From an uncultured Granulosicoccaceae bacterium (lineage in GTDB: Bacteria > Pseudomonadota > Gammaproteobacteria > Granulosicoccales > Granulosicoccaceae), in the NCBI GenBank assembly GCA_938003855.1, contig CALKXD010000082.1:1-56825 (forward strand): a DNA stretch of 56,825 bases, given 5' to 3'. The notes below the pieces were generated by a model, which saw only the letters and a list, made by a program, of their open reading frames with translations, was not told the DNA's origin and did no database searches. Made by a program: the position numbers and the translations under genes. Positions 30,512 to 48,689 of this stretch are shown here, piece after piece; positions within the stretch are counted from its first letter, which is position 1; each line of letters opens with the position of its first letter.

Positions 30512-31336
30512 ATGGTCGGTCGTGAAAGTATAGGGATTCGAAGCTTCCGGTTTCTGACCGGGGCACTGCTGATAATCTGGCTGGTGTTGCCTTTAATTCC
30601 ACTGGCAATCTGGTCCTTTGCGCGTGGCTGGTTTTTCCCCAGCCTACTGCCGAAAACCTGGTCGATGAAAGCCTGGGAGTACACTTTTTCGGATACCGCC
30701 GGTGTCATTGACAGTCTCTGGCTGACGGTCGGTATTTCACTGGCGGCGACATTGTTATCCATACTGGTGGGTGTGCCGGCCGGTCGTGCACTCGGAATGT
30801 ATAAATTTCGCGGTAAAGAGTTTGTCGAACTGCTGATACTGGCGCCAATTATAGTGCCGGGTATCGCTGTGGTACTGGGCATTCACTCAGTGTTTATTTC
30901 TATGGGACTCAACAACACGGTGTCCGGGGTAATCCTGGTTCACCTGATTCCCACGCTGCCTTATATGGTGTTGGTTATGGCGGGTATCTTTGCTAACTAC
31001 GATCCTGCCTTTGAGGCGCAGGCCAGAAGCCTGGGGGCGTCACCCTTAAAAACGTTCTGGTATGTGACGCTGCCTGCCATTATGCCTGGCATAATTGTCG
31101 GCGGGCTGTTTGCGTTTCTGGTGTCGTGGAGTCAGTACATTCTGACACTGCTGATCGGTGGTGGACGTGTGGTGACACTGCCGCTGTTGCTGTTTAATTT
31201 TGCCACCTCTGGCAGGAACGATATCACCGGGGCCATCGGCATGATCTATATCCTGCCGGGTATCATTATATTGTTGCTGACCGCCCGACACCTGTCAGGG
31301 CGCAGTGGTGCTGTCGGAGGCTTTGGACAAATTTGA
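30512..31336 (+). CDS. ABC transporter permease (second of pair)
   Basis: A 274-residue MetI-like permease with six membrane helices. The EAA coupling loop reads FEAQARSLGASPLKTFWYVTLPAIMPGIIVG (about residues 165-195). It starts two bases after the first permease and its TGA stop overlaps the TTG start of the ATPase gene (TTGA). It is the counterpart of PotC-type permeases, and the pair explains why the YnjC-type double-length permease is absent here. Confidence 0.9.
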   Translation: MVGRESIGIRSFRFLTGALLIIWLVLPLIPLAIWSFARGWFFPSLLPKTWSMKAWEYTFSDTAGVIDSLWLTVGISLAATLLSILVGVPAGRALGMYKFRGKEFVELLILAPIIVPGIAVVLGIHSVFISMGLNNTVSGVILVHLIPTLPYMVLVMAGIFANYDPAFEAQARSLGASPLKTFWYVTLPAIMPGIIVGGLFAFLVSWSQYILTLLIGGGRVVTLPLLLFNFATSGRNDITGAIGMIYILPGIIILLLTARHLSGRSGAVGGFGQI

Positions 31337-32370: not shown

Positions 32371-32380
32371 GGGCAACACC

Positions 32381-33217: not shown

Positions 33218-33747
33218 CCACCGAGCTATTCGATGACTGGGTTGAACGGTTTGAAACACTAGAGGTGGCGCTGAACCAACTCGACGCCGCCACCGGTGAC
33301 GGAGATCATGGCGCTACCATGCTAAAGGGCTTGCGTGCGGTACAACTTTCGCCTGAACAACCCGCTAAGGCGTTTCGTAAAGCGGCTGGTGGTGCTTCCG
33401 GATCTTTGTTCAGTCTGGTCATCGGGGCACTGGACAGTGTTATGCGTGGCAGGCAGTCGTTGCCCGAGGCGCTATCCACGGCCGCGTCGCGCATCACGCA
33501 GATGGGACAGGCGGTTGCGGGAGATAAAACCATGCTGGATGCCTTACTACCGGCGGCCACTGCGACCACGGTGACCGACGCGGTTACTGCCGCACGTGCG
33601 GGCTGTCTCGCCACCCAGGCAATGAGCGCCAGGCGTGGCAGAGCCCGCTATGTTGAAGGTGCCGGTGTCGGCTGTATAGATGCTGGAGCGACATCAGTGG
33701 CCGAATTACTGGAAGTGTTCGAGAAGCACTGGCAGGAGGACTCATGA
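33214..33747 (+). CDS. Dihydroxyacetone kinase DhaL-like subunit
   Basis: A 177-residue ATP-binding subunit of the DAK2 family. LDAATGDGDHGATMLKGL carries the Asp residues that hold the two Mg ions and ATP. Later blocks are GGASGSLFSLVIGAL, DKTMLDALLPA and ARRGRARYVEGAGVGCIDAGATSVAELL, all conserved in DhaL. It is shorter than E. coli DhaL (about 210). GTG start overlaps the epimerase stop (GTGA), and its own stop overlaps the DhaK-like start (ATGA). No phosphotransferase DhaM is present, so ATP, not phosphoenolpyruvate, is the likely phosphate source. Confidence 0.87.
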   Translation: MTTELFDDWVERFETLEVALNQLDAATGDGDHGATMLKGLRAVQLSPEQPAKAFRKAAGGASGSLFSLVIGALDSVMRGRQSLPEALSTAASRITQMGQAVAGDKTMLDALLPAATATTVTDAVTAARAGCLATQAMSARRGRARYVEGAGVGCIDAGATSVAELLEVFEKHWQEDS

Positions 33748-34763
33748 AAAAGCTGTTTAATAGTCAGCAGCGTATGGTCGATGACATGATCAGCGGCTTT
33801 GTTGCGGCCTATCCGGATCAGATCGTAAAAGGCAGTAACTCACGGGTTGTGCGTCGAAAAACATTGCGCACAAAGGATAATAAAGTTGCCGTGCTGATTG
33901 GCAACGGCAGCGGCCATGAGCCCATCGCGATGGGTTTTGTCGGGCACGGGTTGCTTGACGCCAATGTAGTTGGCGATGTGTTCACCGCTCCGTCACCGGA
34001 TTTAATCCTCGAAGGCATCGAAGAGGTGACCGGTTCAGCTGGTGCGGTGTTGTTGATCTCAAGACATGAAGGCGATGTGATTAATGGCAACGCCGCTGCC
34101 ATGATGGCGCAGGACGACGACCTCGATGTGCGGCCGTTGCTGATGTACGACGATATATCCTCTGCTCCACGGGGACAGGAGCACGAGCGGCGTGGTGCGG
34201 CGGGCACTCTGTTTATTTATAAGATTCTTGGTGCAGCGGCAGAGGCGGGAGTGGCACTGGATGATCTCATCGTACTTGGCGAGGCGGTGCGTGCACGGAC
34301 TCGCACACTTGGTGCGGCGGTGTCACCCGGCGTGTCGCCGATCAACGGCGAATTAATGTTCTCTCTCGCCGATGATGAGATCTATATAGGCATGGGCGTG
34401 CATGGTGAGCCCGGTGTCAGCCGACGCACCGTTGGCCCGGTCAATGAACTGGTAGCGTTTATGGTGGATGAGCTACTGGCAGACCGCCCGATTGAGTCCG
34501 GCACGCCCACGCTGGTGCTGGTGAATGGTTCAGGCGGTACCACCATGATGGAGCTGCTGACCATCTATGGTGAGGTACAGTCTTTGCTTGACGGGCAGGG
34601 GATTCCATGCCTGTCACCGATGATCGGGCCTTTTTCAACCACTCAGGAAACCGCTGGTTTTTCTATCTCGCTGTTTACCCCGACTGAGCCAATGCTCACC
34701 TGGTGGCAGGCACCGCATGCAGCGCCGCTGTTCCCGACAATATTCGGGGAGGCCGCTGTATGA
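33744..34763 (+). CDS. Dihydroxyacetone kinase DhaK-like subunit (probable ketose kinase)
   Basis: A 339-residue substrate-binding subunit. H220 in IYIGMGVHGEPGV aligns with the His that binds the carbonyl of dihydroxyacetone covalently, and GNGSGHEP (53-60) with the loop around the second active-site His (H58). The segment SRHEGDVINGNAA (106-118) keeps the catalytic Asp (D111) but differs from the dihydroxyacetone kinase pattern NYTGDVLNFGLA, which suggests another substrate. DhaK-like kinases for erythrulose are known (LerK, DerK). Here a longer ketose is plausible, phosphorylated at C1 for the aldolase that follows. Order DhaL then DhaK is reversed from E. coli. Confidence 0.87.
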   Translation: MKKLFNSQQRMVDDMISGFVAAYPDQIVKGSNSRVVRRKTLRTKDNKVAVLIGNGSGHEPIAMGFVGHGLLDANVVGDVFTAPSPDLILEGIEEVTGSAGAVLLISRHEGDVINGNAAAMMAQDDDLDVRPLLMYDDISSAPRGQEHERRGAAGTLFIYKILGAAAEAGVALDDLIVLGEAVRARTRTLGAAVSPGVSPINGELMFSLADDEIYIGMGVHGEPGVSRRTVGPVNELVAFMVDELLADRPIESGTPTLVLVNGSGGTTMMELLTIYGEVQSLLDGQGIPCLSPMIGPFSTTQETAGFSISLFTPTEPMLTWWQAPHAAPLFPTIFGEAAV

Positions 34764-35656
34764 CCACTGCCATTTATGGTGTTGCCATCGACGCTGGCAG
34801 TGGCTTGCAGGCAGCGCTCAAAGAGGCGCGTGGCGAAAGTGCACAAGCCAATGATCTGCTGACATTCAAGCGTTGTGTTATCGAAGAGCTGGGCACTGGT
34901 GCCAGCGATGTATTGATCGATGCGGCGACCGCTGAGCGGCTGGTGACAAGCTACCCGCCACAGTGTCGACGGATGATCGCCTACGAAGCCGACGTCTATC
35001 ATATCGCTGACGATGACCGTATCACCGTGTTTCCCGATAATTTATCGCTGGCAGACTACGCGGCTCTGGGCTCCACTCAGTTAAAGTTTTTTATTTATTA
35101 CGCGCCCGATGACAATGCCGAACTGAATCAGCGTAAGCAGGCACTGGTCGAGCAACTCGGCCACGACTGCAAGCAGCATAATCTCAGGTTTTTAATGGAG
35201 CCGCTGGTGTACCACCCGACTATTGAAGCGGGCGGTGCAGATTATGCCAAACGCAAGCCCGACCTTGTACAGCGTGCCACGTCATTGTTTGCCGAACCTC
35301 GATTCCAGGTTGATGTATTAAAAGTGGAAGTACCGGTCGACTTGAATTTTGTCGATGGTTTTGGTGAGCCACTGATGTCGCGTGCAGACGCGCTACAGGC
35401 GTTCCACCGTGCCGCGCTGCCTGCGGCAGATCTGGATCTGGTCTATCTCAGTGCCGGTGTCAGCTTCGACTGGTTCAAGGCTTCGCTGTCAATGGCCAGA
35501 GAAGCTGGCGTGGCGTATAACGGATTTATGTGTGGCCGCGCATTGTGGTCTGATGCCATTGCTGTATTTGGCAGTGACGGTGAAACAGCCGTCAGGCAGT
35601 GGCTGCGTGAGAACGGCCAGTCCAGACTGGCGCAATTGATTTCGGCTGTGCAGTAA
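34760..35656 (+). CDS. Class I aldolase, LacD/YihT type (ketose-phosphate aldolase)
   Basis: A 298-residue aldolase of the tagatose-1,6-bisphosphate/YihT family, which forms a Schiff base with the substrate and releases DHAP. The catalytic lysine is K188 in FQVDVLKVEVPVDL; other family signs are LKFFIYYAPDD (108-118), LRFLMEPLVYHP and VYLSAGVSFDWFKASLSMAREAG near the phosphate-binding end. The ATG at 34760 overlaps the DhaK-like stop (ATGA); an in-frame ATG upstream (34703) lies inside dhaK. It ends the operon. The family includes enzymes for tagatose-1,6-bisphosphate and for sulfofructose 1-phosphate, so the aldehyde product is not fixed. Confidence 0.85.
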   Translation: MTTAIYGVAIDAGSGLQAALKEARGESAQANDLLTFKRCVIEELGTGASDVLIDAATAERLVTSYPPQCRRMIAYEADVYHIADDDRITVFPDNLSLADYAALGSTQLKFFIYYAPDDNAELNQRKQALVEQLGHDCKQHNLRFLMEPLVYHPTIEAGGADYAKRKPDLVQRATSLFAEPRFQVDVLKVEVPVDLNFVDGFGEPLMSRADALQAFHRAALPAADLDLVYLSAGVSFDWFKASLSMAREAGVAYNGFMCGRALWSDAIAVFGSDGETAVRQWLRENGQSRLAQLISAVQ

Positions 35657-35749
35657 CCTGGCGCCAGTGATCAGATCATAAAACCCTGCCTGGCGAATTA
35701 TTGCAGTGGCATTGTAATTAATATCAATCCATAGAGGAGTAGTCTGCGA

Positions 35750-37183
35750 ATGACCGGCAAGGTAACCATCGGCTTGATCAAAGCGTCACTGCCGAGCTAT
35801 TTCCCTGACAGGCACGGTGTCTGGACGGCTGCCGAGACGGCGCTGTCGTCGTTGTGTGCCTCTGAATCTATAGAGTTGTTTGTTGCCCCGACTATACCAA
35901 TGGATGCGCGTGAAACTACGGCCGCACTGCAGGCTTGCGAATCTGCCGGCGCTGATTTTATTTTGGTGTTGCACGGTGGATTCACGATGGGTGACGTTGC
36001 GCGCACGGTTGCTGCAGCGCCGGTGCGCGCGGGATTCTGGTCGGTGCCGGAGCCGATCCGCACCGGTGATATACAGCTGAACAATTTTGTCTCACTTAAT
36101 ATGTCGATGTCGATAGCGCGACAGGTCCGGGACCTCGCCCGCAATCCGGTGCAGTGGTATCACGGTGCGCCTGACAGCCCGGCGTTAGTTAAGCGCCTGA
36201 CCACAACTTTCAGAGCGCTGAAGGCTGTTCGTGCTCTGGATGGTGCTCGAATCGGCGTGATTGGCGGGTTGGCGATGACCTTCTATAACATGGAAGTCTC
36301 GACCAACGCATTGCGTCAGCGACTGGGTGTTGAAGTCTCGCACCATGATATTCACGAACTGACCAATCGCATGGATGCCATGGATGCGGAGGCAGTCGAA
36401 GCCGAGGTAACTGCAATTAGTGCAGCCGCTGCTGTTGATGGTGTCAGTGAGGCACAGATGTTGTTAACCGCCCGTGCGTCACTGGCGTTACGTGCCATAG
36501 CGCATGAGTGCGGTTACGCGGCACTTGCTGTCAGTGACTGGCCGGCGCTGCAGAATTACCCGGGGATGCATCCGGGGGCCGCTTTTACCTGGCTGGAAGA
36601 AAATGATGGCATACCGGTGGCATCAGAGGGCGATATTCTCGGTGCCGTTACGCAACTGGTGGCCAAATCGGTATATGGGAAAGTAGGCTATTTGCTCGAC
36701 ATGACCGAACCGGATCTCGACGCCGGGCAGTTACTGATGTGGCATGGCGGCGGGGGGCCGCTGTATCTTGCCGACGCCGGTGGTGCGCGCTGGATAAATC
36801 ACCCGATGATCGGACGCGGCACAGAGGCGGGGCCGATCTACGGTGCGATCTCTGACCTGGTGTTCAAAGATGGGCCGGTCAGTGTTTTTCGAGTGGCCAG
36901 AGACGGCACGGCGTTGTTTCAGATGAACAGCGTGGTGAGCGGCCGGGACCCGAGTGGCTTCACCGGGTGTCGCGGGTGGCTTGAGCAGTTCAGTATGGAG
37001 GGTCGAACCCTGTCACTGGAAGATATTGTCTCGACCGTGATGGCACACGGACTGGAACATCATTTCATTCTGGTGCCCGGCGACGTCAGCGCGGTGCTGG
37101 CCGAGTTCGCCGCATGGACCGCGATGCAGACGCTTGAGTGCCGGCCGATGAAAGCGCATCTTGATTGTCGGGACTTTACCTGA
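35750..37183 (+). CDS. L-fucose/L-arabinose isomerase-family protein
   Basis: A 477-residue protein of the fucose/arabinose isomerase fold, which interconverts aldoses and ketoses using Mn or Mg. N-terminal, middle and C-terminal domains are present; IPVASEGDILGAVTQLVA and MWHGGGGPLYLADAGGARW are the metal-site and substrate-site regions expected in this family. It is closer to the short COG2407 group than to E. coli FucI (591 residues). AGGAG lies 11 bases upstream of the ATG. A 93-base gap containing the palindrome CTGGCGCCAG separates it from the aldolase gene, so it may have its own promoter. It would supply the ketose to the epimerase and kinase. Confidence 0.8.
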   Translation: MTGKVTIGLIKASLPSYFPDRHGVWTAAETALSSLCASESIELFVAPTIPMDARETTAALQACESAGADFILVLHGGFTMGDVARTVAAAPVRAGFWSVPEPIRTGDIQLNNFVSLNMSMSIARQVRDLARNPVQWYHGAPDSPALVKRLTTTFRALKAVRALDGARIGVIGGLAMTFYNMEVSTNALRQRLGVEVSHHDIHELTNRMDAMDAEAVEAEVTAISAAAAVDGVSEAQMLLTARASLALRAIAHECGYAALAVSDWPALQNYPGMHPGAAFTWLEENDGIPVASEGDILGAVTQLVAKSVYGKVGYLLDMTEPDLDAGQLLMWHGGGGPLYLADAGGARWINHPMIGRGTEAGPIYGAISDLVFKDGPVSVFRVARDGTALFQMNSVVSGRDPSGFTGCRGWLEQFSMEGRTLSLEDIVSTVMAHGLEHHFILVPGDVSAVLAEFAAWTAMQTLECRPMKAHLDCRDFT

Positions 37184-37237: not shown

Positions 37238-38323
37238 TCAGCTGGCAGCGGTTTTGAGCTTATTGTAGAAATCGATAAATATTTCATCGCGCTGTACGTC
37301 GTGCGCCTCACGCATCTGGTGGCGTGATTGATCTTTTTTCCAATACAGGTTTTCATCCAGTATTGGTGACGTTGTCAGCCTGGTGGGAACCCAGTCGGGA
37401 TTGATCAGCCAGGCGATGTTGATGATATCCCAGATCACCCAGGTGCGACGGCCGGTGTCCTCGATAGCAAACATTTTGTGCAGTGGATTATTGGTGTACA
37501 AGTGGTGCAGGTACTCGCCAATGGCACCACAGCCTGAGACGAATTCGGTCATCTCGGGCAGGGATATCTTAAGCTGGGCACCAACATGGTAACCGGGCAG
37601 ATAAATATGCGGCACACCGCAGTCGAAGATCAGCCGCGAGGCGTGGACATCCTGTACCAGGTTCAGTGACGGCCGGTTGCAGTGCGGTGCGCTGGACGGA
37701 TAGGCAGAGGTCCAGATAACCACAATATTCTCACGAATCTCCGGCGCTTTTAGAATCGCTGCGGCGATGTTTGTCACGCAACCCATCGCCGCGATATACA
37801 GCGGCGACGAACCGCTTTTTGCCAGATCGATTATCGTGTCGACCGATTCACTCTCAACGATATCGTCGGCGGCGGTCATGTAGCGGGTGGCGCCCCGAAA
37901 CACTTTTCCGGCTGACGACATGCCCAGTTTCCGGTAGATGGTTTCTATTTCCGTGTAGCTGAGTTCCATGCCTTGCTCTGGCAGTACAAATTGCAGATCG
38001 GCGGCGCGTCTGCCTTGCGCATGCAGTCGGTCGATCCAGCCCTGAAAACCACCGACTAGATGTTCCTGGTGGGTGTCTCCGCGCTCGATAGCCTGCTCGG
38101 CGGCGAGTAACTGCGGCTGGTGGTGAGCAAACGAGAAGGGCTCGGCGGTAACCGCTTCGACGGTCATGTGTTGTGGGGATAGCAATGCCCAGGCAAGGGC
38201 GTATTGATCATCGATCTCGTTGGCGGTATCGGTATCAATCAGCAGGCGTACCGTCGACGACGGGGGGGTTAATCGTTCCTGCATGAGTTCTTTAGACAAG
38301 GGTTTGAAGGCTGGATAGGTCAT
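37238..38323 (-). CDS. Nucleoside hydrolase-like protein
   Basis: A 361-residue protein of the inosine-uridine nucleoside hydrolase family. The calcium-binding signature is LLIDTDTANEIDDQYALAWALLS (about 27-49), an extended form of the usual DTDPGIDDA. The middle IAAMGCVTNIAAAILKAPEIRENIVVIWTSAY and the C-terminal half fit the same fold. Enzymes of this family split nucleosides into base and ribose, but the NEID insertion marks a distinct group of unknown substrate. It is the last gene of a minus-strand unit behind the GntR regulator (46-base gap) and converges on the fucose-isomerase-like gene. Confidence 0.78.
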   Translation of the reverse strand: MTYPAFKPLSKELMQERLTPPSSTVRLLIDTDTANEIDDQYALAWALLSPQHMTVEAVTAEPFSFAHHQPQLLAAEQAIERGDTHQEHLVGGFQGWIDRLHAQGRRAADLQFVLPEQGMELSYTEIETIYRKLGMSSAGKVFRGATRYMTAADDIVESESVDTIIDLAKSGSSPLYIAAMGCVTNIAAAILKAPEIRENIVVIWTSAYPSSAPHCNRPSLNLVQDVHASRLIFDCGVPHIYLPGYHVGAQLKISLPEMTEFVSGCGAIGEYLHHLYTNNPLHKMFAIEDTGRRTWVIWDIINIAWLINPDWVPTRLTTSPILDENLYWKKDQSRHQMREAHDVQRDEIFIDFYNKLKTAAS

Positions 38324-38369
38324 AACGATTGTCCGTTGTAACAGTAGAGAGAATAGCGGGTTAAACCAG

Positions 38370-39110
38370 TCACAGGTGCCTGGGGGTACGCGATTGTTGC
38401 GATAAGTTAAAGCTCAATGGGCCGCGGCGAAAGACATCTTCGTGAAAAACCACTCCGCCGTTATCATCAAATGCCGAGCAGGACTGCTTCAGCAGTAGCT
38501 CACCACTTTTTATCTTTAGTATTCTGGCCAGTTTAGAGTCTGCGGCGATCGGGCTGATATCTTCGCATGCGGCTGACCAGTCGAGGTTAAATCGGGCGCT
38601 GAGAATTCGCAGGATCGACTGACCGGGACCGACTTCCGGAAAATCAGCGGCAGTGGCATCGCGGAGCAGATCAGTGGGCACGTAGGTCATGACCAGCATC
38701 TGAGGCTCGTTGTCGACTTCTCTCAGTCGGGTGATGCGGGTGACGGCACATTGTTGCAAGCCGCTTGGTAGTGCGCGGGTGGCTTTGGCGGACGGTTTAT
38801 AGAGGTCCAGCGCAAGAAAGCGTGAAGCGGGTTCGTGGCCGGCGCGTAGCATCGCGTCGGTGAAGGAGGTCAGACAGGTGTCCGAAGCGGGTGACAGGGT
38901 CAGGATTTTATAGCCACTGCCTTGCTTTCTTTCTACGTAGCCGTCCTGCACCAGCATGTCGAGCGCGCGGCGGATTGTCACCCGGGATACGTTAAATTGT
39001 AGTGCGAAGTCGCTTTCGGTTGGTAGCCGCGATCCTATAGAATAGCGACCGGCTTTCAAGCGCTCGACAATCACGCGGTAGGCGTGAATATATTTTGGCG
39101 TATCGGTCAT
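38370..39110 (-). CDS. GntR-family regulator, HutC subfamily
   Basis: A 246-residue regulator with an N-terminal winged helix (residues 1-70; RLPTESDFALQFNVSRVTIRRALDMLVQDGYVERKQGSGYKI) and a C-terminal UTRA ligand-binding domain (about 80-235). HutC-type proteins bind short palindromes with a GTMTAKAC core and are released by small ligands. Two TTGTAAAKACAA palindromes lie in the two divergent promoter regions flanking this gene block. It sits 17 bases after the acyl-CoA synthetase and 46 before the nucleoside hydrolase, so it is part of the operon it probably controls. Confidence 0.88.
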   Translation of the reverse strand: MTDTPKYIHAYRVIVERLKAGRYSIGSRLPTESDFALQFNVSRVTIRRALDMLVQDGYVERKQGSGYKILTLSPASDTCLTSFTDAMLRAGHEPASRFLALDLYKPSAKATRALPSGLQQCAVTRITRLREVDNEPQMLVMTYVPTDLLRDATAADFPEVGPGQSILRILSARFNLDWSAACEDISPIAADSKLARILKIKSGELLLKQSCSAFDDNGGVVFHEDVFRRGPLSFNLSQQSRTPRHL

Positions 39111-39127
39111 GGTATTCCAGTGTGCTT

Positions 39128-40801
39128 TCAGCCGCCGCTGCGGGCTTTGCTTTGCTCGGCCTCACGCAGTACGCGACGGTTGATCTTGCCGGATGATGTC
39201 ATCTCGAAACCGCTGACAAACTCAATTTCACGCGGGGCTTTGTAGCCCGCTAACTGCTCCCGCACATGGTTTTTTAACAGCGTGGCTAAGTCTTCGTTGC
39301 CGCTAAAGTTTGTGCTGCATTTAATAAACGCTTTTACGATAGAGCCGCGGTCTGCATCGGGCTTGCCAACGACTGCCACTTCGGCGACGGCAGCGTGTGC
39401 CAGCAGGCTTTCTTCTATCTCTGCAGGTCCGATGCGAAAGCCTGATGATTTGATCAGGTCGTCAGAGCGCCCTTTGTACCAGTAGTAGCCATCTTCATCG
39501 CGAACGGCCAGGTCGTGCGTTCGCAAATACCGGCCAAGCTGCATTTCCTGTTCTTTTTCAGTGTTGTTGAGGTAGCCCATGAATCGGGTCGGTGAGCTAG
39601 CAAGGGTGACTATCTCTCCGGGTTCACCGTCAGCGACGTCTTTTCCGTCGGCGTCGACCAGATGGACTTCGTGGCCGGGGTAGGCGCATCCCATGGAGCC
39701 GGCCTTACGCGGGAACAGAGCGCTGCAGTTGCCGATCAGATGATTGACTTCGGTCATGCCGTAGAATTCGTTGCAGACCACGCCGAGTGAGTTTTCTGCC
39801 CAGTTCAGTGTTTCTGATGCCAGCGCTTCGCCGCCGGTGCAGATCACTCTCAGTGACAGGTCATAGTCTTCACGGGGTTTTGCTGTTTGTGCCAGGCGCT
39901 TAATGGCTGTTGGCGCTAAAAAGGTGTGAGTCACCGCATGGCGCGCCATAAACTCATAGGCATAAGCGGCGCTGAAGCGTCGCAGGGATGTGGCGATCGG
40001 GCGTCCGGCCATCCATGCGGGAAACAGCATGTCGAGCAGGCCACCCACCCATGCCCAGTCGGAGGGTGACCAGTAAACGGCATCACTGTCTTCCATCGAT
40101 AGATTGAAAAACAGATTGATTGACGGTGTGTAGGCCGCCAGCACGCGGTGGCCGTGCAGAATTCCTTTGGGCTTGCCGGTAGACCCGGAGGTGTACATCA
40201 GCAGCGCCGGGTCATCAGCGCCGGTGTAGTCGGGGGTGAAGTCCGGCGCGGCTGTCGTCAGTGCAGTGGCCAGGCAGTGTTCGGAATTTTTCGGATCTCT
40301 GAGTAGCACATCCTGCAGGTCGGGAAACCGGCTCGAGGCCTCATCGCGCAGAACGGACCAGGCGTCATCAGAGGTAATCAGGACTTTTAATTTGCAGTCG
40401 TTCAGAGCGTGCTGCAGGGTTTGTGGTCCGTACAATTGCGACAATGTTACGGCGACACCTCCCAGCTTGCATACGGCCATGTGAGCGACCGCTGTGTCGG
40501 GGTGCTGGCCGGTATGCAAGCCGATCAGATCACCGCGACCGTAGCCCAGTTGCCGTAAGCGACCGGCCAGATTGCTGGCGGCGGTGTCGACCTCGGCAAA
40601 CGATTGCTGGTGGATATTGCCGTCGGCATCTTCATAGATCAGAGCTGGTTTATCTCTGTCTGCCGTCGACAGGTGCCTGCCGAGTGTCATGTGAAAGATA
40701 TTGCTGTCGTCCGGCCATTGTATAGACAGGGTATCGTTGTCGAGTGACAGATTTAGTTTGCTGAGTGTTTGCGCAGGTAGCGCACGTAGTTTATTGATCA
40801 T
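39128..40801 (-). CDS. AMP-forming acyl-CoA synthetase
   Basis: A 557-residue acyl-adenylate enzyme, joining an acid to CoA with ATP. The ATP motif is LMYTSGSTGKPKGILHGHRV, then the adenylation motif EFYGMTEVNHLIGN, the hinge YKGRSDDLIKSSGFRIGPAEIEE and the catalytic lysine in SGKINRRVLREAE. It resembles the acetyl/medium-chain group (ACSM-like); LANSLWNW-type fatty-acid markers are absent. The acid it activates is unknown. It overlaps the zinc-ribbon gene by four bases, and the thiolase-like gene lies upstream of both, so it probably makes the CoA ester on which they act. A GTATAGAC element lies inside its first codons (40718-40729). Confidence 0.88.
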   Translation of the reverse strand: MINKLRALPAQTLSKLNLSLDNDTLSIQWPDDSNIFHMTLGRHLSTADRDKPALIYEDADGNIHQQSFAEVDTAASNLAGRLRQLGYGRGDLIGLHTGQHPDTAVAHMAVCKLGGVAVTLSQLYGPQTLQHALNDCKLKVLITSDDAWSVLRDEASSRFPDLQDVLLRDPKNSEHCLATALTTAAPDFTPDYTGADDPALLMYTSGSTGKPKGILHGHRVLAAYTPSINLFFNLSMEDSDAVYWSPSDWAWVGGLLDMLFPAWMAGRPIATSLRRFSAAYAYEFMARHAVTHTFLAPTAIKRLAQTAKPREDYDLSLRVICTGGEALASETLNWAENSLGVVCNEFYGMTEVNHLIGNCSALFPRKAGSMGCAYPGHEVHLVDADGKDVADGEPGEIVTLASSPTRFMGYLNNTEKEQEMQLGRYLRTHDLAVRDEDGYYWYKGRSDDLIKSSGFRIGPAEIEESLLAHAAVAEVAVVGKPDADRGSIVKAFIKCSTNFSGNEDLATLLKNHVREQLAGYKAPREIEFVSGFEMTSSGKINRRVLREAEQSKARSGG

Positions 40802-41178
40802 GTGTGTTCCTGCACGGGGTACAAATGGAGTGCGGGTAGTGACTGGCCTGTCGTCGCGGCACGCAGCTGACCGACCCGCTGATCTGCAGCGAAGTTGCAG
40901 AGTTTGACCGTACAGAGGGTGTCTGCACCGCGGAATTTAACCAGCGCAAAGTCACCGTCGGCCCCCATTGTTCGGTAGTGAATATCGGCTCGACCGTCGA
41001 GGGTAATCCACGAGCCCCGGGTATCGCCACAGCGGCAGGTTCTGTGCGGTGGAAAGCTGACTTCTGTGCAACTGCTGCATTGTCTGGCAACCGCACCACC
41101 TGACAGTATGCCGCTGCTGAACGGTTGCAACCATCCTTCGGCCAGAGTGTACTCCAGTGGCAGGTTGTGTTTGATCAT
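40798..41178 (-). CDS. Zn-ribbon/OB-fold protein (DUF35), partner of the thiolase-like protein
   Basis: A 126-residue protein with a rubredoxin-like zinc ribbon formed by C34, C37, C48 and C50 (QCSSC then TCRCG), followed by an OB-fold. Such proteins form tight complexes with thiolase-superfamily enzymes: BbsA with BbsB in anaerobic toluene degradation, the DUF35 domain of ChsH2 with the steroid aldolase Ltp2, and archaeal thiolase/HMG-CoA synthase channels. It overlaps the thiolase-like gene and the acyl-CoA synthetase gene by four bases each (ATGA), so the three proteins should be made together and probably act as one complex. Confidence 0.85.
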   Translation of the reverse strand: MIKHNLPLEYTLAEGWLQPFSSGILSGGAVARQCSSCTEVSFPPHRTCRCGDTRGSWITLDGRADIHYRTMGADGDFALVKFRGADTLCTVKLCNFAADQRVGQLRAATTGQSLPALHLYPVQEHT

Positions 41179-42353
41179 GCGCGTGCTCCGGCCAGTAAAG
41201 TGACTGCAGCGGTGGTGCAGATTCCGCCGTGGGTGTCGGCCAGTGCAATGCGCGGTAATGCTGACGGTTGTAGCGGTGGGTGATAGCGGCCTTCCAGCAA
41301 CAACGCGCAGTTGGCGGTTTGAGCCACCCCCGTGGCACCGACGGGTGCGCCCTGACCCATAAGACCACCGGAGATATTTACCGGCATGGTGCCAGTCGGG
41401 GCGAACGCGCCGTCAAGCAGGTCGGTAGCTATATTGTCGCTTAAGCCAAGTGCATCGATGGCCTGCAACTGGGCACCGGCATAGGCGTCATAGAGTTCGG
41501 CCGTGTCGATATCTGCAATGCGGATATCCGCTTCTTTCAAGGCCCGTTGCATTGCCCGTGTCTTTGCGGCAAATGAGCCGATGTTTTCGCGTGCTCCCAG
41601 ATGAGCGGTGTCGGAAGCGGCGCCAATCCCGATAATGCTTGGCGCGGCCCTGCGAGCGCCAGGGGTTAAACGGCTGCCCGATAATATAATCGCTGCCGCA
41701 CCGTCACTGAGTGGTGAGCAATGCAGGCGCCTATAGGGCGAAGCGATCAGCGGGGACTGATTAATCTCATCCAGGGTGTGCGTGCGGCCAAGATGTGCGC
41801 CGGGGTTGTGCGTGGCATTGCGGCGGTTTTGCCGGGTGACTTCGGCGAGTTCTGATATACCCAGCCCGCTGTGCTGCATAAAGGCCTGAAACGACAGTGC
41901 ATAGAGTGCGGTTGACGTGATGCCACTCATGCCGTCAGTCCATGCATCAAATGAATAACTGTATAGGGATTTGACGGTGGCCGGGTCAAGTTGTGACGCT
42001 GAGGGGTCGACCCCGATAACGGCCACATGGTCTATGTGGCCGGACTGAATCGCGCGTACCGCTGCGTGCACTGCGAGTTGTCCGGAAGCCCCGCCACCTT
42101 CGACGCGAGAGCACGCAGCACCGGTCAGGCCAAGGTCTGAGGCGAGCACCGACGCTGGATTCAATTGCAAGGTGAAAAAATCACTCTCTGAGGCAACCAC
42201 CAGTGCGTCGATATCGCGACGTTCAAGGCCGGACATACGCAACGCTTGCTCAAAGGCACTGGCCGACCAGTCCCGGAATGACGAGTTATCACGTCGACGG
42301 TTGAATTCAGTGACGGCGGCACCGGTGACGGTGACTCCGGATGGCGATCTCAT
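41175..42353 (-). CDS. Thiolase-fold protein lacking thiolase catalytic Cys and His
   Basis: A 392-residue protein of the SCP2/acetyl-CoA acetyltransferase branch of the thiolase superfamily. In place of the nucleophile motif (VE-x-A-C-A-S-G) it has VEGGGASG (84-91), with Gly88 at the Cys position. In place of GHP-x-GATG it has GAPVGATG, with Ala336 at the His position. The CGG-type C-terminal segment reads HGGICTTAAV. It is therefore unlikely to be a thiolase. By analogy with Ltp2-DUF35 retro-aldolases, a C-C lyase acting on an acyl-CoA is possible. It is first in the minus-strand operon, 49 bases downstream of a candidate GntR operator. Confidence 0.8.
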   Translation of the reverse strand: MRSPSGVTVTGAAVTEFNRRRDNSSFRDWSASAFEQALRMSGLERRDIDALVVASESDFFTLQLNPASVLASDLGLTGAACSRVEGGGASGQLAVHAAVRAIQSGHIDHVAVIGVDPSASQLDPATVKSLYSYSFDAWTDGMSGITSTALYALSFQAFMQHSGLGISELAEVTRQNRRNATHNPGAHLGRTHTLDEINQSPLIASPYRRLHCSPLSDGAAAIILSGSRLTPGARRAAPSIIGIGAASDTAHLGARENIGSFAAKTRAMQRALKEADIRIADIDTAELYDAYAGAQLQAIDALGLSDNIATDLLDGAFAPTGTMPVNISGGLMGQGAPVGATGVAQTANCALLLEGRYHPPLQPSALPRIALADTHGGICTTAAVTLLAGARA

Positions 42354-42669
42354 TGCGGATCTGACTCGGTAGCGTTGACGAGGTATGTTGAATTAACCAA
42401 TTTGTAAAGACAAGTCCTTTTGAAGTAATCCGGTCAGTGATCAGCCGGCGGTCAGGATGTGGCTGCGGTTATTGCTGCCGGTTGCGTAAAACCGATGATG
42501 CGAGTGGCCTCGATAGCTGTTTGTGCCGCTCTGCCTGACGGGTTAAAAAGTGCTTGCAAGTTGATTGGCGACAGGCGATAACAGATGTCGGGGAAAGTTG
42601 GCCGGGCGTACTGCAACGGGGCGTTTCGGCCAGATATTAACGACAGCATAATGTCTAAACGGAGTGAAC
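42354..42669. promoter_or_regulatory. Divergent promoter region, thiolase-like and polyamine operons
   Basis: 316 non-coding bases between the thiolase-like gene (minus) and the polyamine binding-protein gene (plus). It carries the operator candidate at 42402-42413 near the minus-strand start. GGAG at 42661-42664 is the ribosome site for the plus-strand gene. Nothing else is recognisable. Confidence 0.45.
42402..42413. promoter_or_regulatory. Candidate operator of the HutC-type GntR regulator (site 2)
   Basis: TTGTAAAGACAA, arms TTGT and ACAA, core matching seven of eight positions of GT-M-T-A-K-AC. It differs by one base from site 1 (27817). It lies 49 bases before the ATG of the thiolase-like gene, a location suited to repression, and 257 bases before the polyamine binding-protein gene. 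The regulator is encoded in the downstream operon. Confidence 0.5.
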
Positions 42670-43737
42670 ATGGACACACGCAGATTGACCGCCCGTATCG
42701 CCGCAGGCCTCGGGGTGATGTGCCTTTTCCATAGCGGTTCAGCGCTGGCCGCAGGCTCGATAAACGCACTGGTCTGGTGCGACCATACCGACGCTGAGTT
42801 TATCCGTCCGTTTGAGGAGGCAAACGACGTAAAAGTAAACCTGAAGGAATTCGAAGGCACCGGGGCAGCCTTGTCGATACTTGAGCAATCACAGCCCGGT
42901 GACTGGGATGTGCTGATTATTGATGGTGTCGATGTGCCGAAACTCGCCAAAGACGGTGTGCTGGCCAGCCATCCGGAAGAGGCGCTGCCAATCTCTGATA
43001 TCTGGCCGGAAGTACTGCTCGAGCAAAATCACAAGATTGACGGTAAATGGTATGGCATGACGGAACTGTTCGGCTACAACACAATTGCCTATAACAAAGA
43101 CAAGGTCGACCCGGCTGATATGCTCGACATGACTACCCTGTGGGGTGATAAATATAAAGGTCGCATGGCCGTTTATGACTGGCACACCCCGATGATCGGG
43201 CTGGTGGCAATGGGGCTGGGTAAAAAGACCGCAGAGTTGGGCGAGGCCGATCTGCCCGAAATCAAAGAAACGCTGTTCAAGCTAAAAGACAACACCGCGC
43301 AGTTTACCGACGTTGTTGCCAGTCAGACGGCACTGGCCACCGGTGAGGTTGATATCCTGTTCGGCGGAGGTGAATGGCTGACGGGGGTATTGTCGCAGGA
43401 GATGCCTAATCTGGACTGGGTACTGCCAAAGCAGGGAGGGCTGATGTGGTCACAGTCAGTTACGACGCTGGCCGATGCCGGCAACCCTGAAATGGCGCTT
43501 AAATTTATGCAATATATTCTCAGTCCCGAAGGGCAGGCCAGGTTGGCGACATCTTCATGCTACTGGGCTATGCCGGCCAATATGAAAACCGGCGACAAGC
43601 TCAATGATCAGCAAAAAGCGGCACTGCGCTGGGACCAGCAGGCTGACTATCTGGCCAATTCCCAGCTGTATCCCGTAGTCGATGCCGAACTCGATGAAAA
43701 AATGGAAGATCTCTGGACAGAGATGCAGCAGCGCTAG
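42670..43737 (+). CDS. Polyamine-type ABC transporter substrate-binding protein (PotD-like)
   Basis: A 355-residue extracytoplasmic binding protein. The signal peptide is about 28 residues (ends SGSALAAG); the mature part opens SINALVWCDHTDAEFIRPFEEANDVKV and contains DVLIIDGVDVPKLAKDGV, GMTELFGYNTIAYNKDKVD and DILFGGGEWLTGVLS, as in PotD/PotF relatives of type II fold. The ATG at 42670 is chosen with GGAG six bases ahead; a GTG at 42664 is also in frame. The ligand may be a polyamine or another small cation. A hairpin follows before the permease genes. Confidence 0.88.
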   Translation: MDTRRLTARIAAGLGVMCLFHSGSALAAGSINALVWCDHTDAEFIRPFEEANDVKVNLKEFEGTGAALSILEQSQPGDWDVLIIDGVDVPKLAKDGVLASHPEEALPISDIWPEVLLEQNHKIDGKWYGMTELFGYNTIAYNKDKVDPADMLDMTTLWGDKYKGRMAVYDWHTPMIGLVAMGLGKKTAELGEADLPEIKETLFKLKDNTAQFTDVVASQTALATGEVDILFGGGEWLTGVLSQEMPNLDWVLPKQGGLMWSQSVTTLADAGNPEMALKFMQYILSPEGQARLATSSCYWAMPANMKTGDKLNDQQKAALRWDQQADYLANSQLYPVVDAELDEKMEDLWTEMQQR

Positions 43738-43772
43738 GCCCGGCTGTTTTAAAGACACAGCGCGTTTTTTTC

Positions 43773-43815
43773 GATCATTGCTGTTACGCCGGAATTACCC
43801 GCGCCGGCAATGATC
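43773..43815 (+). terminator. Hairpin after the PotD-like binding-protein gene
   Basis: GATCATTGC (43773-43781) pairs perfectly with GCAATGATC (43807-43815); an inner GCCGG/CCGGC pairing is an alternative. It begins 35 bases after the stop and ends about 20 bases before the first permease gene. It is preceded by a T-run but not followed by one. Confidence 0.6.
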
Positions 43816-43835
43816 AGTAATCCGCCCTTGCGCTC

Positions 43836-44693
43836 ATGAACCACACCCGGCTTGAAACACGCTGGCAGCGCTGGCGTTTTGTGTTGCCTGCGTTGTTGTG
43901 GACGGTGGCATTTTTTGTTGTGCCGTTTGTCTTTATGGTTGTGATGAGTTTATGGCATCGCATAGGTGGCAAGATAGTCGCCACCTGGAACCTCGACAAT
44001 TATAGTAATTTTTTCGCCAAACCTCACCTGATCAAAGCGCTGCTGAACTCCATAGAGATCAGTTTAAGTGTGACCGTAATATCCCTACTACTGGCCTATC
44101 CGCTGGCATGGATTATCGCCGAGCGGGTGCCGGTAAGGTGGCAACGTACGGCATTAATACTGGCGGTGCTGCCTTTCTGGACATCCTATGTGGTGCGATC
44201 CTATGCGTGGCTGCTGGTGCTTGCGAAACAAGGCATTGTCAATACGTTTCTGCTCGATACCGGTATCATCGTCGAACCACTGGCAATAGCATCGAGTCGC
44301 TATGCCACGGTGATTGGCTTTGTGCATTTTTTTGTGATGCTGCTGACGCTCACGATTTATGCAAACCTGAAGCAGCTATCGCCGAACTATGCGCGTGCCG
44401 CCGCCGATCTGGGGGCAGGGCCGTGGCGTACTTTCTGGCATGTGATTCTGCCGTTAACGCTGCCAGGCATTATGGTCGGCGCGTTCCTGACCTTTGTGCT
44501 GTGCATTGGTGATTACATCACGCCTAAAATACTAGGGGGCAGTAATGAGCTTGTTCTGCCGCAGGTAATTATGCTGCAGATCGGCCGGCGTGCTGATTTT
44601 CCCAACGCGGCTGCGCTGTCTATTTTATTGATGATGGTGGTGACTCTTGCCTATGTGGTGTGCGCGCGCTGGCTGAAGATGGAGCGCACCTGA
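43836..44693 (+). CDS. Polyamine-type ABC transporter permease (PotB-like)
   Basis: A 285-residue MetI-like permease with six membrane helices. RWQRWRFVLPALLWTVAFFVVPFVFMVVMSLW is the first helix and YARAAADLGAGPWRTFWHVILPLTLPGIMVG the EAA coupling loop, followed by GDYITPKILGGSNELVLPQVI, a signature of PotB-type permeases. It begins 98 bases after the binding protein and just past the hairpin. The next permease starts two bases after its stop. Confidence 0.9.
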   Translation: MNHTRLETRWQRWRFVLPALLWTVAFFVVPFVFMVVMSLWHRIGGKIVATWNLDNYSNFFAKPHLIKALLNSIEISLSVTVISLLLAYPLAWIIAERVPVRWQRTALILAVLPFWTSYVVRSYAWLLVLAKQGIVNTFLLDTGIIVEPLAIASSRYATVIGFVHFFVMLLTLTIYANLKQLSPNYARAAADLGAGPWRTFWHVILPLTLPGIMVGAFLTFVLCIGDYITPKILGGSNELVLPQVIMLQIGRRADFPNAAALSILLMMVVTLAYVVCARWLKMERT

Positions 44694-44695
44694 TA

Positions 44696-45487
44696 ATGGC
44701 ACGACGCTATATACAGACTACGCTGACAACGGTTTATGCCGCACTGCTGTACGGTTTTATTTTTCTACCGGTGGGCGTGCTGGTGTTGTTTTCGTTTCAG
44801 GACAGCCGATTGCCGATCATGCCATTTAAAGGCCCGACACTGAAATGGTATGAGGCGGTACTCGCTGACAGCCGCCTGATTGAATCGATGGTCAATTCCC
44901 TGATAGTGGCGGTGTCTTCGTCGCTGCTGTCGGTGGTGCTCGGGTTTCTGGCGGCGTATGCGCTGGCCCGTTTCTACCTGCCGGGGAAAGGCTGGCAGCG
45001 CGCGCTGCTGACCGCACCGTTGACAGTCAGTTATCTGATCATAGCGCTGGGCCTGATGATACTGTTCAACGCATTGGGGGTGTCCCGTTCGCTTTGGACT
45101 ATCGGTGTTGGTCATGTTGTGATAAACACACCGTTGTGCTTTGCGATAATCTATAGCCAGATGGGAGACCATCAAATAAACATTGAGCGTGCAGCGCGTG
45201 ATCTGGGAGCGACAGAATGGCAGACCCTGTTGCTGATTACCGCACCAATGATGCTGCCATCTATTCTTGCCAGTTTTTTCCTCGCAATGACCTTCTCCTG
45301 GGATGAGTTTATTATTGCATTTTTACTGTCGCGCTTTGATGTCACCCTGCCGGTGGAGATCTGGGGTTTGCTGCGTTCGGGTCTTAGTCCAAAGACTAAT
45401 GCAGCTGGTTCGCTGGTGTTTCTGATTTCGATAGGTCTATTGATCCTTGCTGAGCTTATGGTTTTTCGCAGAATGAAAAAAACATGA
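44696..45487 (+). CDS. Polyamine-type ABC transporter permease (PotC-like)
   Basis: A 263-residue permease with six membrane helices. The opening FIFLPVGVLVLFSFQDSRLPIMPFKGPTLKWYEAV and the coupling loop INIERAARDLGATEWQTLLLITAPMMLPSILASF are typical of PotC. The ATG at 44696 is used because it lies two bases after the PotB-like stop; an in-frame ATG at 44660 is inside potB. Its TGA overlaps the ATPase start (ATGA). Confidence 0.9.
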   Translation: MARRYIQTTLTTVYAALLYGFIFLPVGVLVLFSFQDSRLPIMPFKGPTLKWYEAVLADSRLIESMVNSLIVAVSSSLLSVVLGFLAAYALARFYLPGKGWQRALLTAPLTVSYLIIALGLMILFNALGVSRSLWTIGVGHVVINTPLCFAIIYSQMGDHQINIERAARDLGATEWQTLLLITAPMMLPSILASFFLAMTFSWDEFIIAFLLSRFDVTLPVEIWGLLRSGLSPKTNAAGSLVFLISIGLLILAELMVFRRMKKT

Positions 45488-46566
45488 CAGCCAGAGTGGA
45501 CATAGCGCAACTCACACATCGCTTTGGCAGTTTCACGGCGCTGAAAGATATTGATCTGACGATTGCAGCAGGAAGCTTTGCGGTACTGCTTGGACCGTCC
45601 GGCTGTGGCAAGACAACTTTGCTGTCGGTACTTGGTGGTTTTTTGCGTCCGTCCGCCGGGTCGATTCTACTCGACGGCCAGGATGTTACGCAGGTGCCGC
45701 CGGCTAAACGTGGCACCACAACCATGTTTCAGGATTATGCCTTGTTTCCACACATGAACCTGCTCGATAACGTTGGCTTCGGCCCGCGCATGCGCGGGCA
45801 TTCCCGAAAGCGTCGTCGGCAGCAATCGCTGCAATTGCTTGAGCTGGTTGGTTTGCACTCCGAGGCACAAAAAAAACCACATGAACTATCCGGCGGCCAG
45901 CGCCAGCGGGTGGCTCTGGCGCGTGCGCTTGCAGTAGATCCCGATGTGCTGTTGCTCGATGAGCCCCTTGGCGCGCTTGACCTGAAGTTACGCCGGCAGA
46001 TGCAGGATGAGCTCAAGGCAATTCAAAAACGTGTCGGTACCACTTTTATCCATGTAACTCATGATCAGGAAGAAGCCATGGCCATCGCAGATGAGATCAT
46101 CGTGATGAATGGCGGCGTCGTGGTAGACCAGGGCTCCCCTGAATCGATCTATTTACATCCGGCCAGTACTTTCTCGGCGGCGTTTATGGGAGATGCAAAC
46201 TTAATCGACGGGCGGGTGCTGGCGATGGATAGTCATACAATCACTGTAACCACAGAGTTTGGTCAGCTAAACTTGAATGCCTTCTGCAATGTGAATCAAA
46301 ACATCGGCAGTGGCGACCGTATTTGTGTGTGCTTCAGACCGGAGCATGTACTGCCCCCGGGTACCATCGCCGAACACCCGATAGACCTCGGGTTGGCTGT
46401 AATCCGTGATTCTACATTCTTCGGGTCTCATCAGCGCTATCAGTTACTGGCTGCTGATGGATCTATCTATATCGCCCAGTTGCCACAGTCGGCATCGATG
46501 GCCCGCGACAGTCAGATGCCGCTGCGGCTGGATGGTTTGTCTCTGGTAGTACTGCGCGCTGAATAA
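45484..46566 (+). CDS. Polyamine-type ABC transporter ATPase (PotA-like)
   Basis: A 360-residue ATPase of the PotA/MalK group with a C-terminal TOBE domain. Walker A is GPSGCGKT (37-44), the signature LSGGQRQRVALARAL, Walker B VLLLDEPLGALDLKLR and the switch VTHDQEEAMAIADEI. The motif FQDYALFPHMNLLDNVGFG is the usual Q-loop region. It overlaps the PotC-like gene by four bases and precedes the hydrolase gene by 12, so the hydrolase belongs to the same transcript. Confidence 0.92.
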   Translation: MTARVDIAQLTHRFGSFTALKDIDLTIAAGSFAVLLGPSGCGKTTLLSVLGGFLRPSAGSILLDGQDVTQVPPAKRGTTTMFQDYALFPHMNLLDNVGFGPRMRGHSRKRRRQQSLQLLELVGLHSEAQKKPHELSGGQRQRVALARALAVDPDVLLLDEPLGALDLKLRRQMQDELKAIQKRVGTTFIHVTHDQEEAMAIADEIIVMNGGVVVDQGSPESIYLHPASTFSAAFMGDANLIDGRVLAMDSHTITVTTEFGQLNLNAFCNVNQNIGSGDRICVCFRPEHVLPPGTIAEHPIDLGLAVIRDSTFFGSHQRYQLLAADGSIYIAQLPQSASMARDSQMPLRLDGLSLVVLRAE

Positions 46567-46578
46567 GAGAGTAACCCC

Positions 46579-47301
46579 ATGCAACGAGCTAACGCAAATG
46601 ACTGGTATACGGTTAGTAAATTCAGTGACGACATTCGCCTGATCAGTGAAATGCACATTACAGAGTTTTATCGTTGCAATATCTGGCACGTGCGAGGGCG
46701 CAATGCCGATGCACTAATTGACAGCGGTATGGGGGTGGTGAGTCTGCGCGAGCAAGTACCGCTGGTCACCGAAAAGCCGGTGCAGGCTATTGCGAGCCAC
46801 ACGCACTTTGACCACATAGGTTGCCATCATGAATTTGAACACCGCTGTGTGCACGTGGCGGAAGCTGAATTACTGGCCAGCCCGACACGAAGCAGTACAC
46901 TCGCAGACCCCTATGTCACGGATGAAATATTTACCAGCTTGCCGCCACTGCCGTATCAATCGACACGCTATGCGGTGAAGGCCGCTTCGGCTACCCGGCT
47001 ACTGGAAGACGGTGATGTCATTGATCTGGGTAATCGGCAACTGGAAGTGATACATACACCGGGACATTCCCCGGGCGGGATTGCGCTATGGGAAGCAGCC
47101 ACGAGTACCTTGTTCAGTGGTGATATCGTCTACGACGGCCCTTTGATTGAAGACACTTATCATGCGGATGCACAGGATTATTATCGTAGTATGACGCGTT
47201 TGCTTGAGATCCCCGTGGTTACTGTTCACGGCGGACATTTCGCAAGTTATGGTCGGTCACGGCACCGGCAGATTATACGGCAATGGCTCGATGCACATTG
47301 A
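46579..47301 (+). CDS. Metallo-beta-lactamase-fold hydrolase
   Basis: A 240-residue metal-dependent hydrolase. The zinc-binding motif is H74-T-H76-F-D78-H79 in IASHTHFDHIG; further metal ligands lie in HTPGHSPGGIALWE and in LFSGDIVYDG, and the terminal VTVHGGHFASYGR holds the last His. These match the glyoxalase II/lactonase-like group, but the substrate cannot be named. GAGAG precedes the ATG. It is the last gene of the polyamine-type uptake operon, so it may act on the imported compound or a derived lactone, thioester or phosphoester. Confidence 0.85.
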   Translation: MQRANANDWYTVSKFSDDIRLISEMHITEFYRCNIWHVRGRNADALIDSGMGVVSLREQVPLVTEKPVQAIASHTHFDHIGCHHEFEHRCVHVAEAELLASPTRSSTLADPYVTDEIFTSLPPLPYQSTRYAVKAASATRLLEDGDVIDLGNRQLEVIHTPGHSPGGIALWEAATSTLFSGDIVYDGPLIEDTYHADAQDYYRSMTRLLEIPVVTVHGGHFASYGRSRHRQIIRQWLDAH

Positions 47302-47416: not shown

Positions 47417-47923
47417 ATGAAACAACTTAAAATAAACGTAAGACCAAATCGAGTTGCGGTGCTCAGCGTGCTGTGCAGTGTGTTGTTGCATGGTTGTGCG
47501 GCTACTGTGCTCAGGCCGGTACAGGAAACTGACAAAGACACCTCAGGATCGTTTAACGGTAGATGGCTCGGTGAGGTGATCAGTACCGCGCCGGTGCAAT
47601 CCGGTCCGGGTAACTGGCGGCTCAATTGCTCAGATGCTTCGGGCAGCAAATTTATGATGGTAGTCAACGATGGGGTGGTGAACTACGGTTCACCTCCGGA
47701 TCAGGCGTCAGCTTTTATCAACAGTGATGGTAAATTTAGAATAGAGTCGCCGTTGGAAGAAGAAGTAAAGGCCGATGATAGCTCGGTCGAGTCGGTTGGG
47801 AATGGTAAAGTCACGCTTATAATATATGGTTCTCTCGCCAGCGGAAAAGGGTCTGTTACCTTTGGTATTGCTCAATTTTCGAACAATGGTTGTACGTCGA
47901 AGATCGACTTTACCAAAGTATAA
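47417..47923 (+). CDS. Small putative lipoprotein, first of a tandem pair
   Basis: A 168-residue exported protein. Residues 1-20 form a signal peptide ending LLHGC, a lipobox-like site where Cys would be lipidated. The rest is beta-rich with a single conserved plan shared with the next gene: GPGNWRLNCSD, a Gly-rich middle, KVTLIIYGSLASGKGSVTFGIAQFSNNGCTSKIDF. The two further Cys (in LNCSD and NNGCTS) could form a disulfide. I do not recognise a family. The last steps of both proteins (YGS, KGS, FG/IG, NNGCTS) are nearly identical, so the pair arose by duplication. Confidence 0.7.
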   Translation: MKQLKINVRPNRVAVLSVLCSVLLHGCAATVLRPVQETDKDTSGSFNGRWLGEVISTAPVQSGPGNWRLNCSDASGSKFMMVVNDGVVNYGSPPDQASAFINSDGKFRIESPLEEEVKADDSSVESVGNGKVTLIIYGSLASGKGSVTFGIAQFSNNGCTSKIDFTKV

Positions 47924-48182: not shown

Positions 48183-48689
48183 ATGAATACGAAATCGAGA
48201 GGACGGCCTGTCCGATTGGCAGCTGTCGGGGTTTTGTTGGGTGTCTTGTTAGCGGGTTGCGGTTCTACAGCATTGCGGCAGGTAGATCAATCAGATAGAG
48301 ACCGCGCCGGCGTCTACGACGGTGTCTGGAGTGGCCTTATTGTGAGCACTGCGGCCAAGCAACCCGGTCCGGGTAACTGGTTGATGGACTGTGGCGATAT
48401 GGCCGGTACCCAGATGTCGAATATCGTCGTCGATGACGGTGTGGCCTCATTGGGTGGGCAGGAAGATTCACCGGTCGCCAATGTCAGTGCCTTCGGCAAG
48501 TTTAGATTTGTCATCCCGATGAGCGAGGTCGCAACCGCCGCTGGCCGGTCAGACTCCAGTATCAACAACGGCGACATGACGCTGATCATGTATGGATCAC
48601 TGCGAACCCAGAAAGGCTCACTCACGATAGGAATTGCTGATTTCGGCAACAACGGCTGTACGTCTGAGGTTGAGTTCAGCAAGCCCTGA
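48183..48689 (+). CDS. Small putative lipoprotein, second of a tandem pair
   Basis: A 168-residue paralogue of the preceding gene, equal in length. The signal peptide is MNTKSRGRPVRLAAVGVLLGVLLAGCGS, with a clear lipobox LLAGC. The mature part shares RAGVYDGVWSG, STAAKQPGPGNWLMDCGD, GDMTLIMYGSLRTQKGSLTIGIADFGNNGCTSEVEF with the first copy. The two Cys of the mature domain are kept. It converges on the LysE gene 11 bases away. The function is unknown; an outer- or inner-membrane lipoprotein with a small beta-fold is the best description. Confidence 0.72.
   Translation: MNTKSRGRPVRLAAVGVLLGVLLAGCGSTALRQVDQSDRDRAGVYDGVWSGLIVSTAAKQPGPGNWLMDCGDMAGTQMSNIVVDDGVASLGGQEDSPVANVSAFGKFRFVIPMSEVATAAGRSDSSINNGDMTLIMYGSLRTQKGSLTIGIADFGNNGCTSEVEFSKP

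Follow-up and report, generated by a model that had tools for sequence, protein, structure and literature searches.

A thiolase-fold protein without catalytic Cys and His as a putative DUF35-dependent acyl-CoA aldolase within a bacterial sugar cassette

Two characterised thiolase-fold aldolases, TcLtp2 and CtSal, act on steroids (PMC12329534). TcLtp2 uses Tyr294, in a YDHF motif, as catalytic base and Tyr344 as acid, and CtSal uses Tyr302, in YDCY, and Cys304 in these respective roles (PMC12329534). CtSal also has Gly at the old position of the thiolase Cys, beside the substrate hydroxyl, and its GG loop forms the oxyanion hole (PMC12329534). Here we describe a thiolase-fold protein (THI), a DUF35 partner (D35) and an AMP-forming acyl-CoA synthetase (ACS) encoded in a 56,825-nucleotide stretch of DNA, referred to as the window, from an uncultured Granulosicoccaceae bacterium. 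The initial annotation envisaged a small stand-alone three-protein lyase, which was not borne out: the three genes are one arm of a conserved cassette of 13-15 genes for a pentofuranoside or nucleoside-like sugar. From sequence and by analogy, we lean towards THI-D35 being a DUF35-dependent acyl-CoA retro-aldolase that feeds a ketose-1-phosphate sugar pathway. Instead of being a thiolase, THI probably cleaves a polar acyl-CoA.

Active site and descent of the thiolase-fold protein

THI is encoded by an intact open reading frame of 392 aa at 41175-42353 on the minus strand, and was assigned to what we call the YDAY family from its reading frame, motif alignment, orthologues, a structural model and a tree. 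It matches Thiolase_N and Thiolase_C_1 in Pfam (PF00108 and PF22691), and the predicted model has a thiolase fold with a pTM of 0.90. The VIA Z scores of this model are 53.1 to 6esq (archaeal ACAT), 45.8 to Ltp2 and 44.8 to Sal. Its confidence is low at residues 332-337, the region that holds Gln334 and Ala336.

Alignment with 6esq places Gly88 (codon 42090-42092) against the nucleophilic Cys, the THI motif reading CSRVEGGGASG where 6esq has CTRVEAACASG. The GH segment of 6esq becomes GQGAPVGATG, and Ala336 (codon 41346-41348) stands against the His of GHP in GLMGQGAPVGATG. Both replacements had been proposed in the initial annotation, and both are present in all 46 family members, with Gly88 wherever a thiolase would have its Cys. 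There is also a third change absent from that annotation: AEVHDCFA of 6esq is AELYDAYA in THI, so that the third catalytic residue, the His of HDxF, is replaced by Tyr288 (codon 41490-41492; Y288-D-A-Y) in 46/46. The loss of Cys, His and His rules out an ordinary thiolase, whether thiolytic or biosynthetic and including the SCP2 type. No other cysteine is a convincing substitute, since Cys379 is Cys in only 26 and Cys81 in 5 of the 46 sequences, and Cys212 is invariant yet lies in an HCSP motif shared by the thiolase 6esq.

The family was collected by a scan of 84,980 species genomes, which gave 45 loci at 54-71% identity and, with the window copy, a total of 46. One further match in the same scan (L060, 33% identity) has the CAS and HDCF motifs of a true thiolase and was kept apart. 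Almost all hosts are marine members of the Rhodobacterales, Hyphomicrobiales, SAR116 and Granulosicoccaceae; Marinovum algicola DG 898, Tateyamaria pelophila and Hoeflea halophila are carriers that can be cultured. Six residues of interest are identical throughout the family (Gly88, Ala336, Tyr288, Asp289, Gln334 and His375), and Ala, Ser or Pro occupies position 290; two plasmid orthologues have YDSF instead of YDxY. The next relatives are only about 33% identical and have Cys and His intact, so the residue change marks a discrete family. Close pairs have dN/dS values of 0.08-0.20, indicating purifying selection. Because Gly88 and Ala336 are invariant across sequences of 54-71% identity and dN/dS is low, we reject chance, decay and sequencing error as causes of the changes. 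The earlier view that the loss was selected is upheld, the reading frame being intact as well.

A tree built without the trait columns places the THI family on its own branch with 100/100 support and a long stem. The Ltp2/Sal-type clade is separate, also at 100/100, and the THI family does not fall inside it in this tree; a sister relation between the two is not rejected (p-AU 0.558). We infer that THI resembles the Ltp2 and Sal enzymes in its mode of action from outside their clade. Many gammaproteobacterial YDxF thiolase-fold proteins (YDAF, YDSF, YDCF and YDHF; L090-L101) cluster with Ltp2/Sal, and the YDAF of one Ltp2-family member means that Ala at the third place occurs there too. An Ltp2/Sal-type YDSF protein also lies on a plasmid of Aureimonas sp. 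SA4125 (L125, 3140-10750) together with DUF35, MaoC, SDR, carboxyltransferase, AMP-ligase and PotD-like importer genes, forming another aldolase-like cluster. Separately, Sulfolobus tokodaii ST0096 (PDB 4yzo) is a Cys-less thiolase-like protein (VDNTSGSGG) that retains the GHP His.

When THI is aligned to the two aldolases via relatives, Tyr288 occupies the base position of TcLtp2 and CtSal. Residue 290 (Ala, Ser or Pro) falls at Cys304 of CtSal and His296 of TcLtp2, and Ala336 at the thiolase GHP His, Tyr344 of TcLtp2 and Gln352 of CtSal. Neither known general acid, Tyr344 of Ltp2 or Cys304 of Sal, is retained in the THI alignments. With Tyr288 and Gly88, THI would therefore keep a base and room for a beta-hydroxyl while both known acids are lost. 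Judged from these alignments, THI has a rebuilt active site that differs from those of both Ltp2 and Sal, making it the third such arrangement. A candidate general acid is His375 (codon 41229-41231), which is invariant, sits in a DTHGG motif and directly precedes the GG oxyanion loop.

Partner, synthetase and the surrounding cassette

D35 (40798-41178, minus strand) comprises a zf-ChsH2 zinc ribbon (C34-x2-C37-x10-C48-x-C50) and an OB-like barrel. It sits beside THI in 46/46 loci. The overlaps of four bases with THI and with the ligase gene, reported initially, are confirmed at both junctions (ATGA in the window), and the THI-partner overlap (ATGA or GTGA) recurs in 42 of the 46 orthologues. 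A Pfam search with the window copy returned no match; among 19 aligned orthologues, 15 match zf-ChsH2 (PF12172), and one close orthologue scores above the cut-off. All four zinc ligands, C34, C37, C48 and C50, are invariant in the alignment. A D35 profile searched against the PDB gives as its best match the DUF35 of Shy, which is bound to Sal. The predicted model has a pLDDT of 88.5 and matches DUF35 chains at Z 9-13, with VIA Z of 12.1 to the Sal partner and 11.9 to the Ltp2 partner; unrelated folds score at most 5.9. The earlier assignment to a Zn-ribbon/OB fold is borne out, and by predicted fold and sequence D35 is a true DUF35 protein nearest to the Sal and Ltp2 partners.

ACS (39128-40801, minus strand) has a catalytic Lys539 that is conserved in 45/45 sequences. 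Equally conserved is Gly348, which lies at the second Trp of the TWW motif of acetyl-CoA synthetases. In Acs, a Trp to Gly change makes room in the pocket for acids above propionate in size, and Gly348 disfavours glycolate or acetate as the acid.

The cassette was defined from neighbour clustering of all loci, three annotated plasmids and extra regions. It contains an ABC importer, an IunH-like hydrolase, a GntR regulator, an aldose isomerase-like protein (ISOM), an epimerase-like protein (EPI), DhaL, DhaK, LacD, ACS, DUF35 and THI, and is seen at 46 loci and on 3 plasmids. Its window layout consists of 28204-37183 on the plus strand followed by 37238-42353 on the minus strand. The plus-strand genes encode a solute-binding protein of the PRK11622 family (28204-29463), two permeases (29653-31336; individually 29653-30510 and 30512-31336) and the importer ATPase (31333-32370). 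These are followed by EPI, a psicose/tagatose 3-epimerase-like TIM barrel (32381-33217), DhaL-type and DhaK-type kinase subunits (33214-33747 and 33744-34763), a LacD/DeoC-type class I aldolase (34703-35656) and ISOM, assigned to the FucI/AraA/SftI superfamily on weak matches (35750-37183). On the minus strand, the IunH-like nucleoside hydrolase (37238-38323; DTDTANEIDD) and a GntR/UTRA regulator (38370-39110) precede the ACS-D35-THI genes. Sulfoquinovose and sulfofucose pathways were set aside for the cassette, as the isomerase and aldolase similarity is only weak. Arsenosugars and modified nucleosides were further candidates, which the evidence neither favours nor disfavours.

Divergent from THI lies a second, PotD-like ABC transporter (42664-46566, plus strand) whose membership of the cassette is uncertain. 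This transporter and an MBL-fold hydrolase (42664-47301 together) were not seen at other loci, where a monocarboxylate-type MFS transporter often sits beside THI. Further along the window, two adjacent small putative lipoproteins of 168 aa each (47417-47923 and 48183-48689) appear to be tandem paralogues.

The cassette genes are closely linked across genomes. Orthologues of IunH, LacD, DhaK and ISOM above about 49% identity occur in exactly the same 3 of 72,556 plasmid records, and IunH and the importer are present in 18/18 genomes. Among Granulosicoccaceae, every genome with ISOM also has THI; IunH extends to two additional genomes, of which G005 carries IunH and the importer alone. At two loci (L042 and L043) ISOM directly follows THI-D35-ACS; in the genome of the first, EPI-DhaKL-LacD-IunH lies at another place, where a GH51 arabinofuranosidase and a further isomerase-like gene accompany it. 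An aldehyde dehydrogenase (ALDH) was detected in 22 of the 46 loci as fetched. Several clade B loci have a 4-base overlap between ALDH and LacD, and most clade A loci that carry ALDH have one of the same length between ALDH and ACS; no ALDH adjoins the cassette genes of the window or of Parasedimentitalea. Because a GH51 arabinofuranosidase is also present in THI loci L039 and L059, the sugar handled by the cassette is probably a pentofuranoside. A GH51 gene 68-75% identical to these two copies is found inside a THI-less sister cassette (L132, 6714-8678). At the loci examined, the neighbours of THI are sugar genes, with no steroid genes among them. Text searches, with partial coverage of the open literature, returned no description of the cassette.

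Proposed pathway and alternatives

We infer retro-aldol chemistry, its direction and the order of steps as follows. ACS would convert a polar 3-hydroxy acid, one bigger than acetate, to its CoA ester, and THI and D35 would assemble into a heteromer that cleaves a C-C bond of the acyl-CoA by retro-aldol chemistry. As THI is missing the nucleophilic Cys, no acyl-enzyme would form; the space at Gly88 would admit the beta-hydroxyl, with Tyr288 as the proton acceptor. Deprotonation by Tyr288 would lead to cleavage of the Calpha-Cbeta bond, and the GG loop would hold the resulting enolate for reprotonation, with His375 as a possible proton donor. The reaction would release a short acyl-CoA together with an aldehyde. 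The latter is most likely an aldose, which ISOM, EPI, DhaKL and LacD would convert to DHAP and a small aldehyde. Points that weigh against this reading are the loss of both known general acids, the placement of the family outside the Ltp2/Sal clade and the low model confidence at residues 332-337. Carnitine and gonyol are also 3-hydroxy zwitterions; they were dropped as substrates, since they would leave the sugar genes unexplained.

The position of ISOM directly after THI-D35-ACS at L042 and L043 favours an order in which THI makes the aldose for ISOM. We prefer this order with modest confidence over two rivals. The first, which we regard as possible though doubtful, keeps the chemistry and reverses the order: IunH, ISOM, EPI, DhaKL and LacD would first break down a C5-modified pentofuranoside, yielding DHAP plus a substituted aldehyde, which ALDH would oxidise to an acid for ACS to activate and THI-DUF35 to cut. 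Sugars with a blocked terminal carbon, such as 5-deoxyribose, are known to be handled by C1 phosphorylation together with aldol cleavage (PMC6079011), and the salvage of that sugar is a precedent here. The coupling of ALDH to LacD in some loci and to ACS in others is expected if ALDH links the two, favours the order LacD, ALDH, ACS, THI, and counts against the preferred retro-aldolase reading in so far as it fits the reverse order equally. However, ALDH was detected in fewer than half of the loci as fetched and is missing beside the window and Parasedimentitalea genes, and in split cassettes ISOM remains next to THI. The second rival, which we judge unlikely, treats the cassette as serving two halves of one conjugate, with IunH or GH51 splitting a pentofuranosyl-acid, the sugar arm burning the pentose and ACS-THI-DUF35 consuming the acid aglycone. 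It draws on the GH51 genes of L039, L059 and the THI-less L132 and on the monocarboxylate-type MFS beside THI, and is hard to square with ISOM travelling with THI-D35-ACS at L042/L043.

Two further alternatives concern the activity of THI itself. Cys-less condensing-enzyme folds can decarboxylate, a point in favour of a malonyl-CoA-type decarboxylase. TbSLP (YDCF) slowly decarboxylates malonyl-CoA, yet CtSal, which shares the Tyr and Gly of THI, shows no such activity (PMC12329534), and THI no longer has the His residues found in oxyanion holes of the thiolase type, which makes this alternative very improbable. Least probable is a catalytically dead homologue that serves DUF35 or ACS in a structural or regulatory capacity, which would fit the loss of all three thiolase catalytic residues but not the strong purifying selection or the dozens of invariant polar residues, Tyr288, Asp289, Gln334 and His375 among them.

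Returning to the preferred retro-aldolase, we tentatively suggest that THI could represent a further class, the third, of DUF35-dependent aldolase built independently on the thiolase fold, releasing a free sugar from the polyhydroxyacyl-CoA of an algal or marine sugar acid into the ketose-1-phosphate pathway. If so, conversion of thiolase to aldolase would be more general, having occurred in a distinct clade and within a mobile cassette of marine bacteria, and CoA-dependent C-C cleavage would feed sugar catabolism. The cassette would point to an unrecognised pentofuranoside-type compound eaten by marine bacteria.

Comparison with known enzymes

In deoxyribonate catabolism of Klebsiella michiganensis, a CoA ligase and a thiolase-fold enzyme also act on a sugar acid; that route proceeds by oxidation to a 3-keto-CoA and then thiolase (PMC6365646), whereas the core of the THI cassette is without such a dehydrogenase. 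The benzoylsuccinyl-CoA thiolase BbsAB (PDB 7pxp) resembles THI-D35 in combining a thiolase fold with a DUF35-type subunit, but it retains Cys and His and is thiolytic. Nearest to THI in both fold and sequence (31% identity, the top-scoring structure above) is the thiolase of 6esq, the archaeal acetoacetyl-CoA thiolase-HMGCS-DUF35 complex. This enzyme also has a DUF35 partner, but with Cys, the HDCF His and the GH His all present it is a true thiolase.

The bile acid aldolase CtSal-Shy (PDB 9myr) shares with THI the fold, the Gly, the Tyr base (YDCY versus YDAY) and a DUF35 partner. It differs in that Cys304 is Ala or Ser and Gln352 is Ala336 in THI, the MaoC hydratase is absent and a polar-sugar cassette replaces the steroid cluster. 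TcLtp2-ChsH2 (PDB 6ok1) is unlike THI in having Tyr344 in place of Ala336, His296 in place of Ala/Ser290, a rebuilt GxPxGATG segment where THI keeps that of thiolases, a separate clade and a locus with steroid genes, which are absent near THI. The Ltp2-DUF35 precedent proposed initially does not extend to clade membership or to the general acids, both of which are replaced; it does hold for the Tyr of YDxY and the DUF35 partner. As in TcLtp2-ChsH2, a thiolase fold with Gly at the Cys position and the Tyr of a YDxF-type motif as putative base is paired with a DUF35 protein.
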